From the NCBI GenBank assembly GCA_015486135.1, contig WFSE01000059.1, positions 1 through 38,030 of the forward strand: DNA of 38,030 bases, written 5' to 3'. The number at the start of each line of letters is the position of its first letter. Position 1 is the first letter of the stretch. Below the pieces are notes generated by a model. It searched no databases. It saw nothing but the letters and a program-made list of their open reading frames with translations, and was not told the origin of the DNA. Shown here piece after piece: positions 23,404-27,941 of this stretch. Origin of the DNA: Lentisphaeria bacterium. GTDB lineage: Bacteria; Verrucomicrobiota; Lentisphaeria; Victivallales; JAADHT01. Both the position numbers and the translations under genes were made by a program.

Positions 23404-23412
23404 CCGAGGTGT

Positions 23413-25596
23413 TTGGAAATGGAAAAACTGAATTTCAAATTGGGAACTAGAAGAAGCGAATTGGCTCTAATTCAAGCCTGTTCCGCGGCGGCAGCCATCG
23501 AAAATGATTTTCCAAGCGTCCGTTTCGACGTGGTGGAATTCGACACCCCCGGCGACCGCGACAAGTCCACCGACCTCAGAACCAGCGATCCCGACTTTTT
23601 CACGCGCGACTTGGACCAGGCGGTGTTGGACGGACGCTTGGACTGCGCCGTCCACAGCGCCAAAGACCTGCCATCCCCCGTGCCAGAGGGGCTGGACTGG
23701 TTCTGGCTCCCTTGGCGGGCCTCTAGGGAGGACGCTATCGTAACCCGAAACGGTATGGCCGTCGCCGACCTGCCGCCTAATCCCGTCGTGGGCGTTAGCA
23801 GCGATAGAAGGGCGGAATACGCGAAATACGCGTTCCCGGACGCCTGCCTCGAACCCATTCGAGGCAACATTCAAGAACGGTTGAAGCAACTCGACGAGGG
23901 GCGGTTCGACATCCTGATTATGGCCTTGGCGGCGCTGGAACGTCTGGGACTGCGTGACCGGGCTGTGGAAACCATCCCGTTGAGCGAATTGCCTACACCT
24001 CCCGGGCAAGGCGTTCTAGCGGTGACTTTCAAGGCGGGCGATCCCGTCATGGAGACAATCCGTGCGCTGTATGTCAAATCCGTCGCGTTCGTCGGCGCCG
24101 GCCCCGGCGACCCCGGACTCGCGACTTCCGCGACTGTGAGATTGCTTGGCGAATGCGATGTCTGCCTCTACGACGCCCTGGCGTCCGAGGCGCTACTGGA
24201 AAATCTCCCCGAAACCGCCGAGGCGGTGTTCGTAGGCAAACGATCGGGAAAACACTCGATGCCGCAAAACGAAATCTCCGCCCTGATAACCGAACGCGCC
24301 AGCCGCGGGGAACGCGTCGTGAGGCTCAAGGGCGGCGACCCCGGACTCTTCGGTAGACTCGCCGAGGAAATTGACGCGCTCGATGCCTTGCGCCTGCCGT
24401 TCCGAGTCGTCCCGGGGGTAACGTCGGTGTCGGCGGCTACAACCGGCACCGGACTCCTCCCCACGCGGGCTGGAATCGCTAGAACCTTCACGGTCGCCAC
24501 ACCTAGAAAACGGGGTGCGACACCACACGAAATCACCTGGCCGGACAAAAATGAAAGACTGAACGCCCCCTTGATTATTATGATGGGCGCGAAAAGCGCG
24601 CCGGAAATAGCGCGCGAACTCCGCGGCGAGGGCCGTTCCCCCGACGAGCCTTTCGCCATCGTCTTTTCCGCAGGGACGCATGACGAGAAAATCGTAACGA
24701 CAACCCTCGGAGAGGCGGCGGAGGGGAAACTGCCCGAAAACCCCGAGGCCCCCGGAATAATAATCTCGGGCGAAACCGCTTCCCCGGAATTCATATTCAA
24801 ACGGCGTGGCGCGTTCCGCGGCGCAAGAGTCCTCCTGACTGCCTCCAAAGACCTCTCGAAGCGGGCGGCGTCGCTTGTCGAATGGATGGGGGGACGCCCG
24901 ATCATATTCCCCTTGGTCGAGCTGCGGCCGGACACCGAACGGATCGCGGAATTGGCGGGGATAACCCAATGCGATTGGGTGGTGGTCACCTCTCCGGCCG
25001 CCGCGGAGATATTCCTCGACGCCCTCGCATCCTTGAACATAGATGCCAGGCATATCCCCAAAATCATGGTCGCCGGGCCGGGGACCGCTCGAGTGTTTAT
25101 CGCCAAAGGCATATTCCCCGATGCCGTTCCGGATAGCGATTTCGGTGCGAAAGGGATACGGAAACTGGCGATTCGCGAATTCCGCGACGGCGATAGAATT
25201 GCCCGTGTCCGTTCCGATCTGGCCGCCCCGGCGTCGGAACTTTTCGCGGATTCCGCGCTGAAACTCGACCTGCTCGACCTCCCAATCTACAAGAATGTCC
25301 GCCTTACGCCGGAATCCCTGCCCGATTTCGACGCCGCGCTTTTCGCAAGTTCATCGGCGGTCGAGGCGTTCAACGACAACTTCGGTGCCGCCGCCCTCGA
25401 CGGCAAAGACCTGGCGGTAATCGGCGAACCCACCCTGGCCGCCCTGAAACACCACCTCTCCAGCGCTTCCCCCGCCGTCCCGAAATGCGCCACAATCGAC
25501 GCTGCGGTCACCGCCCTTGCCGCGAATATGCTAAATACAGGTGGGTCCATGAAACACACTAAAAAAGAGGGTAGAACCACGAATGAACACGAATAG
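23413..25596 (+). CDS. Trifunctional HemC(domains 1-2)-CobA-HemD fusion; start possibly ATG 23419
   Basis: HemC: LGTRRSELALIQA, AVHSAKDLPSPVPEGL, VSSDRRAEYAKYAFPD, IRGNIQERL, TPPGQGVLAV; CobA: VAFVGAGPGDPGLAT...VRLKGGDPGLFGR...VVPGVTSVSA; HemD: VLLTASKDLSKRAASLVEWMGGRPIIFPLVEL. Confidence 0.93.
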   Translation: MEMEKLNFKLGTRRSELALIQACSAAAAIENDFPSVRFDVVEFDTPGDRDKSTDLRTSDPDFFTRDLDQAVLDGRLDCAVHSAKDLPSPVPEGLDWFWLPWRASREDAIVTRNGMAVADLPPNPVVGVSSDRRAEYAKYAFPDACLEPIRGNIQERLKQLDEGRFDILIMALAALERLGLRDRAVETIPLSELPTPPGQGVLAVTFKAGDPVMETIRALYVKSVAFVGAGPGDPGLATSATVRLLGECDVCLYDALASEALLENLPETAEAVFVGKRSGKHSMPQNEISALITERASRGERVVRLKGGDPGLFGRLAEEIDALDALRLPFRVVPGVTSVSAATTGTGLLPTRAGIARTFTVATPRKRGATPHEITWPDKNERLNAPLIIMMGAKSAPEIARELRGEGRSPDEPFAIVFSAGTHDEKIVTTTLGEAAEGKLPENPEAPGIIISGETASPEFIFKRRGAFRGARVLLTASKDLSKRAASLVEWMGGRPIIFPLVELRPDTERIAELAGITQCDWVVVTSPAAAEIFLDALASLNIDARHIPKIMVAGPGTARVFIAKGIFPDAVPDSDFGAKGIRKLAIREFRDGDRIARVRSDLAAPASELFADSALKLDLLDLPIYKNVRLTPESLPDFDAALFASSSAVEAFNDNFGAAALDGKDLAVIGEPTLAALKHHLSSASPAVPKCATIDAAVTALAANMLNTGGSMKHTKKEGRTTNEHE

Positions 25597-25842: not shown

Positions 25843-25985
25843 TCGCGGAATTGGCAAGTGCCTCAAATGTCAGTCGGCTCCAAGGATTTTGGGAGATTCG
25901 CTCCCAAAACCTTGGAGATGACACCACCAAAACGGTATTTAACCCAATAATTCTTAAGCACTTGTCAATTATTCAGCAGGCCCTA
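25843..25985 (+). repeat. Foldable intergenic repeat copy D (best-preserved hairpin)
   Basis: TCGCGGAATTGGCAAGTGCCTCAA...CTCCAAGGATTTTGGGAG-ATTCG-CTCCCAAAACCTTGGAG...AACCCAATAATTCTTAAGCACTTGTCAATTATTCAGCAGGCCCTA. Confidence 0.9.
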
Positions 25986-27941
25986 TTTCAATGCGTTGCT
26001 TTCGGACAAGGTGACGCTATCGCTGATGTAGTTTTGTATGGGGTAGAGGGCGATTGCGCCTCCCGTCGCTTTCCAGTCGACAATGCTGGCGTTTTTGAGG
26101 AGCTTCATTTTCGCGTTGTCGTCTTCGGCTTTGATTGTTAATTTGAGTGCTGAGCGGAAGCCTTTTTTACACATGATAGTGTATATTTGGCGTGCTTCCG
26201 TAGCAAGCGACAGGGGGTCGTTGCCTATGGTCAAGTTCCATTTCTTCCCGACCTTCATCAAGAGTTTCGCACCTCGGTCCTGGAAAGTGTCCAGGAAACC
26301 GGTCACGTCCACGCTTTTACTTTTTAGCGGCTCGCGGTAGTTGGTTATGGTGCCGCCAGATGGTTCGGCTTCGATGTTGAATTCCAAGAAAGCTCCCTGG
26401 TATAGTACCTCCACACCGTACCAATTGACGATTTCCGCCTTTTCCAGGTTGACGGCGCCGGCCTTGGCCGGTTTGACCACGCCCCTAATGGTGGCTTTTA
26501 TTAGAAAGCTATGGAAGTCGTTGCGTTTGTTGTGTTTCAGTTTTTTCTGGGTGTCGTAGAATTGTTTTATGGGAAGTCCGCTCATTTGCGGCGCGTGGCA
26601 AACAACCCTGCCATTATACAGTTCTATTTTCAAGCCTTGGGGGTCGTTGGAGACTTGGTTAACCATTCCCGTTACCGTGACAGTTTTTCCGGCCAGCTGA
26701 TCGCGTATTCTCAAGCCCGCGGCGAACCAATATAGTCTGTGGGCCGCCATGACTGGCGGGATGAGTGGTGGAGGGCCGCCTCCCGCCACTTTCGAGTTGG
26801 GGCCAGCGGTTCTCTTCAAGGCGGTGGCTTTTTCCGACATATCCGCCACCAGGCGCGAGATGGCGGTGGCGAACACGCCGGTGTCCGCCACTTTTTCCTC
26901 GGCGAGATCGAATTTTTTCCCCGCAACGGCGCAGGCGACAAAATATATGGCCGCCGCGTCCGGGACCATATATTTGGATGCTCGTTTGTATTTTTCGGAG
27001 ATAGCCAAGTTTCCGAGGTCCACGGTAGTAACCACGTAGGATGCTTTGCCTTTGGGGACCTTGACGAGCAGTTTCCCCTTGTCGTTGACCTTAATCAGGA
27101 TTCCTGATACCGTGTGTCCGGTCTTCAGTTTGACCGCTATTTTTTTCTTAATGTCGGCCTTGAAGGAATCCCGTATGATTTTGTTTACGGATGCGAGCTG
27201 TCGCAAGGATTTGCTGGTGTCTTTGCTGAATACCTCGTCCGTGGGGGAGGATTTTGTCGATTGGGCGTGTTCGAATTTGGAGAGGGCGGTCTTGAATTTG
27301 CCCTCGATCAGTTCTTTAGAGAGTGCTTCCAGGAAGGCGTCCCTCTCGCTTTGTGCCTTGCGTTTGGCGTGGTATTTCGCCTGGCGAATTTGGACTTTGC
27401 ACTTTTTCAGCAAGTCTTCCCTAGCCTTGGCGGTTTCTGTTGCCAGTTCTCCGGAGTAATGTTTATATACGTTTACGGCTTTATCGAATTCGCCTTTTTG
27501 GATGAACGCCTCGGATTTCGCTTCCAACGCCTTCAGGATGTCGGCCGTACGGCGTTCCTTGTCCTTGGCCATGGCTTTAATCGCTTTTTGCGTCTCTTGT
27601 ATCTGGGATTTCGCCGCCGCCACGGATTCGGCGTCGGGATGAGCCTTTATGAATTCACGGAGAAGTTTTATAGCTGCGTCGTAATGCTTTGACGCACGCA
27701 ATTTCACCACTTGGCGCTGGGCGTTTTCCCATGCGGTGTTCTCCTGTTTTTTTACTTCTTCGGCTTTCAGTCTCAACGTCTCGCGGAGTTGCGCGGCCTG
27801 CGCCGCCCTGGCGGCCTGGGCTTTCCTGCTGGAGTTTATTTTACTCACCACCATTCCCAAAGCGATGACCACGACCACTCCCGCCACAATCTTCCAGAGA
27901 AGTTGCGGGGATATCTTTTTGCTGCCGGTATCTTCGTCCAT
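25983..27941 (-). CDS. Membrane-anchored Ala/Lys-rich protein of unknown function
   Basis: 652 aa; N-terminal TM (LLWKIVAGVVVVIALGMVV), coiled coil, TPR-like FDKAVNVYKHYSGEL, C-terminal OB-like GKTVTVTGMVNQVSNDPQGLKIEL segments. Confidence 0.75.
   Translation of the reverse strand: MDEDTGSKKISPQLLWKIVAGVVVVIALGMVVSKINSSRKAQAARAAQAAQLRETLRLKAEEVKKQENTAWENAQRQVVKLRASKHYDAAIKLLREFIKAHPDAESVAAAKSQIQETQKAIKAMAKDKERRTADILKALEAKSEAFIQKGEFDKAVNVYKHYSGELATETAKAREDLLKKCKVQIRQAKYHAKRKAQSERDAFLEALSKELIEGKFKTALSKFEHAQSTKSSPTDEVFSKDTSKSLRQLASVNKIIRDSFKADIKKKIAVKLKTGHTVSGILIKVNDKGKLLVKVPKGKASYVVTTVDLGNLAISEKYKRASKYMVPDAAAIYFVACAVAGKKFDLAEEKVADTGVFATAISRLVADMSEKATALKRTAGPNSKVAGGGPPPLIPPVMAAHRLYWFAAGLRIRDQLAGKTVTVTGMVNQVSNDPQGLKIELYNGRVVCHAPQMSGLPIKQFYDTQKKLKHNKRNDFHSFLIKATIRGVVKPAKAGAVNLEKAEIVNWYGVEVLYQGAFLEFNIEAEPSGGTITNYREPLKSKSVDVTGFLDTFQDRGAKLLMKVGKKWNLTIGNDPLSLATEARQIYTIMCKKGFRSALKLTIKAEDDNAKMKLLKNASIVDWKATGGAIALYPIQNYISDSVTLSESNALK

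Follow-up and report, generated by a model that had tools for sequence, protein, structure and literature searches.

The open frame at 23413-25596 on the forward strand of the window (the whole 38,030-nucleotide stretch of Lentisphaeria DNA that was analysed) encodes the first two domains of HemC (HMBS, porphobilinogen deaminase), fused directly to CobA and HemD. Domain 3 and the cofactor cysteine that carries dipyrromethane are both missing. Considering the conservation of the remaining sequence, the protein is probably an active HMBS that works without a dipyrromethane tethered to domain 3, a reading to which we assign a probability of roughly 0.6. Such domain-3-less HemCs constitute a phylum-scale lineage and are not a peculiarity of one genome.

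The frame is uninterrupted and specifies 727 amino acids if counted from TTG 23413, although ATG 23419 is the likelier start given the GAGG element 9 nt upstream. The motifs and coordinates that an earlier note had read from this stretch were found to be correct, and the parts of the gene are as follows:

23406-23409, forward strand: GAGG, 9 nt upstream of ATG 23419 and plausible as ribosome-binding site (direct reading)
23419-25596, forward strand: HemC(domains 1+2)-CobA-HemD fusion gene, 725-727 aa, with TTG 23413 as alternative start
23437-24051, forward strand: HemC domains 1+2 (PF01379, residues 9-213; E 1.6e-52, positions 2-205 of 207)
23593-23601, forward strand: DFF in the active-site lid (residues 61-63), Asp replacing the canonical glycine
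23644-23646, forward strand: Cys78, immediately ahead of the catalytic motif, which might be a relocated anchor but is a weak candidate (57% of group 1, absent from group 2)
23662-23667, forward strand: catalytic Lys84-Asp85 (human K98-D99, E. coli K83-D84), 100% in both lineages and in canonical HemCs
23695-23715, forward strand: DWFWLPW (residues 95-101), a strand that appears remodelled on the basis of residue frequencies; canonical domain 1 docks domain 3 here
24052-24078, forward strand: short linker at the expected start of domain 3 (Pfam and NCBIfam borders, and spacing over the lineage)
24079-24780, forward strand: CobA, uroporphyrinogen-III C-methyltransferase domain (residues 223-456; TIGR01469, 210 bits, cut-off 185)
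24868-25503, forward strand: HemD, uroporphyrinogen-III synthase domain (residues 486-697; PF02602, 90.5 bits, cut-off 27.5)

A Pfam search of the fusion protein recovered PF01379, TP_methylase (residues 224-435) and HEM4, and no match to PF03900, which describes HemC domain 3. The CobA and HemD parts are full length (positions 2-234 of 238 in TIGR01469 and 4-228 of 231 in PF02602) and score above the respective cut-offs, the former being a curated one. The hemC model TIGR00212 also scored above its cut-off (185.5 versus 164 bits), yet the match covers only model positions 2-211 of 293. There is no unassigned domain at the HemC-CobA junction. As HemC domain 3 measures around 75-95 residues and CobA starts only about 10 residues after PF01379 ends, there is no room for it; over the lineage, the distance between the GQG motif and the G-loop of CobA is nearly fixed at 27-31 residues. 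The earlier note's central claim, a HemC reduced to domains 1 and 2, devoid of the cysteine and fused to CobA and HemD, is thus confirmed by the Pfam and NCBIfam profiles. The adjoining reverse-strand gene (25983-27941) specifies a protein of 652 residues with zero Pfam matches.

It had been suggested in the same note that a second hemC or a stand-alone domain 3 might be found elsewhere. The assembly of the genome itself (2.98 Mb, 91% complete) contained neither: PF03900 gave no match at E<=10 and there was no second PF01379, which leaves the fusion as the single HemC. Of 14 control genomes, 11 were positive in the same PF03900 search and 12 in that for PF01379. Among 40 relatives PF01379 was present in 13, always within a long fusion frame and never accompanied by a PF03900 match over cut-off. 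The homologues within the order likewise lack domain 3, whereas close homologues with the Cys domain would have spoken against the note.

Within the phylum, 390 genomes were surveyed, of which 106 carried a domain-3-less HemC (83 of group 1 and 23 of group 2); a canonical HemC was present in about 141. PF03900 was recovered at E<=0.01 in 132 of the 141 canonical-HemC genomes and exceeded the family cut-off in none of the 106. Among the domain-3-less genomes a single PF03900 match was seen, in a 1366-aa frame of G202 (E 0.006); it was rejected as a domain 3, being below cut-off and located elsewhere in the genome. A domain-3 profile specific to the phylum, for which 30 of its canonical HemCs were used, found nothing in any of the domain-3-less loci (best E 0.4). 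The cysteine loop was kept in all 37 canonical HemCs that were read, including a sub-class in which domain 3 has otherwise diverged strongly, and the dipyrromethane cysteine was present in 30/30 canonical members of the phylum that were checked. A third kind of HemC (L152-L158) is stand-alone and retains a GGGC-type domain-3 loop, but its domain 3 is recognisable over roughly the first 25 positions of PF03900 only.

In a maximum-likelihood tree of domains 1 and 2 the domain-3-less HemCs were located on one side of a branch with 100/100 support, and groups 1 (99/98) and 2 (99/97) each appeared as a single clade. Group 1 has the architecture HemC-CobA-HemD. The same holds for group 2, except for five proteins that are HemC-HemD fusions without CobA (L083, L092, L095, L098 and L121); in these five, hemB directly follows the fusion gene. 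Given these five, CobA was rejected as a general substitute for domain 3. One genome (G309) contained two different domain-3-less HemC-CobA-HemD genes (L128 and L129).

Comparison with known systems makes clear which features are shared and which are not. Canonical HemCs (TIGR00212, PF01379 plus PF03900) have in common with the fusion domains 1 and 2, the catalytic Asp, the pyrrole-binding Arg/Lys/Ser/Gln set and the genomic link to HemA, HemB and HemL. The fusion differs from them in the absence of domain 3 and the anchor cysteine, in a lid of the DFF instead of the KGLF type and in a rewritten domain-3 docking strand. Another relevant model is NF002202 (PRK01066), the chlamydial HemC. Its model comprises 241 positions and ends right after domain 2, and since only about 19 residues are left, this HemC must also be without domain 3, although it is stand-alone and not fused to CobA-HemD. 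The domain-3-less proteins scored 143-166 bits on this model versus 109-139 for the canonical HemCs of the phylum, the reverse of what TIGR00212 gave; the window's protein obtained 143 bits, below the curated cut-off of 251, with a match that stops at position 222. Short HemCs have accordingly long been present in the databases. In the open-licence literature we found neither a paper remarking on the missing domain of this short type nor a report of a domain-3-less HMBS. L044, a protein of G219 in this phylum, likewise joins HemC, CobA and HemD in this order in a single 725-residue chain, yet keeps domain 3 and its cysteine (ADCHLPIG), so that fusion alone does not account for the domain loss. 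CobA-HemD fusions and the siroheme synthase CysG similarly join consecutive steps towards or beyond precorrin-2, but lack HMBS, and the Met8-like domain is here connected to HemA instead.

The catalytic Asp and the pyrrole-binding Arg/Lys/Ser set are present in the HemC part of the window's protein. On basis of the pyrrole contacts reported for human HMBS (PMC7907807), the counterparts of R26, S28, Q34, S96, K98, D99, R150, R167, R173, A189, R195, Q217 and G218 are kept at 96-100% in the domain-3-less lineage, while the counterpart of R149 is kept in group 1 and in only 39% of group 2. The HemC part is under purifying selection, with dN/dS values of 0.08-0.23 in nine pairs, similar to the rest of the fusion. 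The active-site lid of the lineage reads DFFT.DLD, with an Asp at human position 63; the first position of the DFF is Asp in 93-96% of the lineage versus Gly in all 30 canonical HemCs. A single-sequence AlphaFold2 model reached a pLDDT of 35 and was set aside as uninformative.

The genomic context connects the fusion to cobalamin synthesis. HemB was found in 104 of the 106 genomes with a domain-3-less HemC versus 1 of the 143 without HemC. It was not found in the genome of the window (G000, 91% complete) or in G017, both incomplete assemblies, in which HemA and the fusion are present. In G166, a complete single-contig genome of the same order, a cobalamin riboswitch is followed by cbiK, cbiL, Met8-HemA, HemC-CobA-HemD, hemB, hemL and a CobD-cobyric acid synthase frame; G004 shows the same core. 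CbiK, CbiL, CbiD and CbiA are encoded on another contig of the window's genome, together with a Met8-HemA fusion. Such fusions of precorrin-2 dehydrogenase (Met8/CysG N-terminal) and glutamyl-tRNA reductase HemA, adjoining cobalamin genes, were seen at L147:8240-9742 and L150:6158-7621. The window's genome also contains an Acido-Lenti-1 RNA (Rfam RF01687; contig C172, L147:16401-16445), which points to a Lentisphaerae-like organism. In families f4 and f5 of the order HemC and HemB are missing from many near-complete genomes, and HemA was missing from the three f4/f5 genomes tested (G006, G007 and G013), which we read as loss of tetrapyrrole synthesis.

The foremost alternative, which we nevertheless consider unlikely, is that dipyrromethane is still bound covalently, via another cysteine of domains 1-2 or of the fused CobA that perhaps differs between lineages. 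The cysteine carrying dipyrromethane has been described as 'invariant' (PMC3949521), and the canonical anchor does not tolerate substitution (PMC10577081). Loss of the tether would thus need a compensating change, and the absence of any fixed anchor is surprising. One candidate is found in group 2 (L079-L098, L119-L121), where all 23 proteins have acquired a new Cys within 'AACALERLGL', at the position of human A191. This position is Ala in 30/30 canonical HemCs and lies two residues from A189, which contacts a pyrrole acetate, making a relocated anchor conceivable in this group. In group 1, Cys78 (57%), Cys137 (73%) and Cys251 of CobA ('CLYD', 88%) are candidates. The window's protein lacks Cys137 and possesses Cys78, 7 residues before the catalytic Asp85; position 78 is a cysteine in none of group 2. 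As none of the three is universal in group 1, they were rejected as a universal relocated anchor: domains 1-2 are free of cysteine in 4 of 67 members, among them L112, L118 and L133, the last of which is without Cys251 as well. No cysteine of domains 1-2 can therefore represent a fixed thioether anchor in group 1, although one that varies between sub-lineages could serve. Judged by these residue frequencies, the window's own lineage most likely does without a fixed covalent anchor.

Another possibility, which we deem improbable, is that the HemC part has lost its catalytic activity or serves a different purpose, such as the binding or delivery of PBG, with hydroxymethylbilane arising by another route. 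Loss of the cofactor cysteine would indeed inactivate the canonical enzyme (PMC10577081). Against this stand the invariant catalytic Asp/Lys/Arg set, the low dN/dS, the co-occurrence with HemB, the position between Met8-HemA and hemB in the B12 operon of G166 and the fact that the genome holds no other HemC. The earlier note had left the choice between a noncanonical mechanism, a partner in trans and an inactive protein next to another hemC. The same observations, viz. the retained residues, the selection, HemB and the riboswitch-headed operon of a relative, support the first of these and make the other two unlikely, the inactive protein very much so.

More improbable still is a separate protein that provides domain 3 or a comparable anchor, even though the canonical chemistry would then be retained. 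Within the limits of the assembly, the absence of PF03900 excludes a trans-acting homologue of domain 3; the phylum-wide profile searches point in the same direction, so that any partner would have to be non-homologous. The docking surface argues against a partner as well. In human HMBS domain 3 docks on a domain-1 strand that includes T109, I110 and I113, and R116 forms a salt bridge with E250 (PMC10577081). The counterpart of Arg116 is present in 100% of canonical HemCs and in 52% of group 1, and is mostly gone from group 2, where it does not figure among the frequent residues. The corresponding strand of group 1 reads DWFWLPW (D 99%, W 84%, W 84%, L 100%, P 99%, W 81%), which differs from the canonical sequence. 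On this comparison of sequences the surface appears to be rewritten, as expected if domain 3 is long gone and is not supplied from elsewhere. Finally, an assembly error, frameshift or degenerate copy hiding domain 3, in favour of which we found only the fragmented state of the window's own assembly, can be dismissed given the identical layout in 106 genomes, including the single-contig G166, G004, G202 and G104.

The preferred reading, an active HMBS lacking the domain-3 tether, thus would entail an enzyme reduced to two periplasmic-binding-protein-like domains that still works and hands hydroxymethylbilane on to HemD and CobA within the fusion; one chain would thereby convert PBG to precorrin-2 for cobalamin. 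Catalytic activity, non-covalent anchoring and transfer between the domains are what we infer from the data above. The wider proposition, that a large bacterial lineage makes hydroxymethylbilane without any covalently attached cofactor, has in our estimation about an even chance of being correct.

HMBS is close to universal and its covalent dipyrromethane is a textbook feature. According to the accepted picture, the tether primes the growing chain, draws it past the catalytic Asp and fixes its length, six rings being reached before a four-ring product leaves. An HMBS that is widespread, under selection, linked to B12 and devoid of domain 3 would provide direct access to the purpose of the tether. 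It raises the questions how chain length is counted without a tether, and whether an HMBS of two domains is a derived form or one that stands near a PBP-like ancestor. A single chain leading from PBG to precorrin-2 may also be useful for B12 engineering. If the lineage indeed lacks a covalent cofactor, the dipyrromethane tether would not be strictly necessary for assembling a tetrapyrrole and counting its rings.
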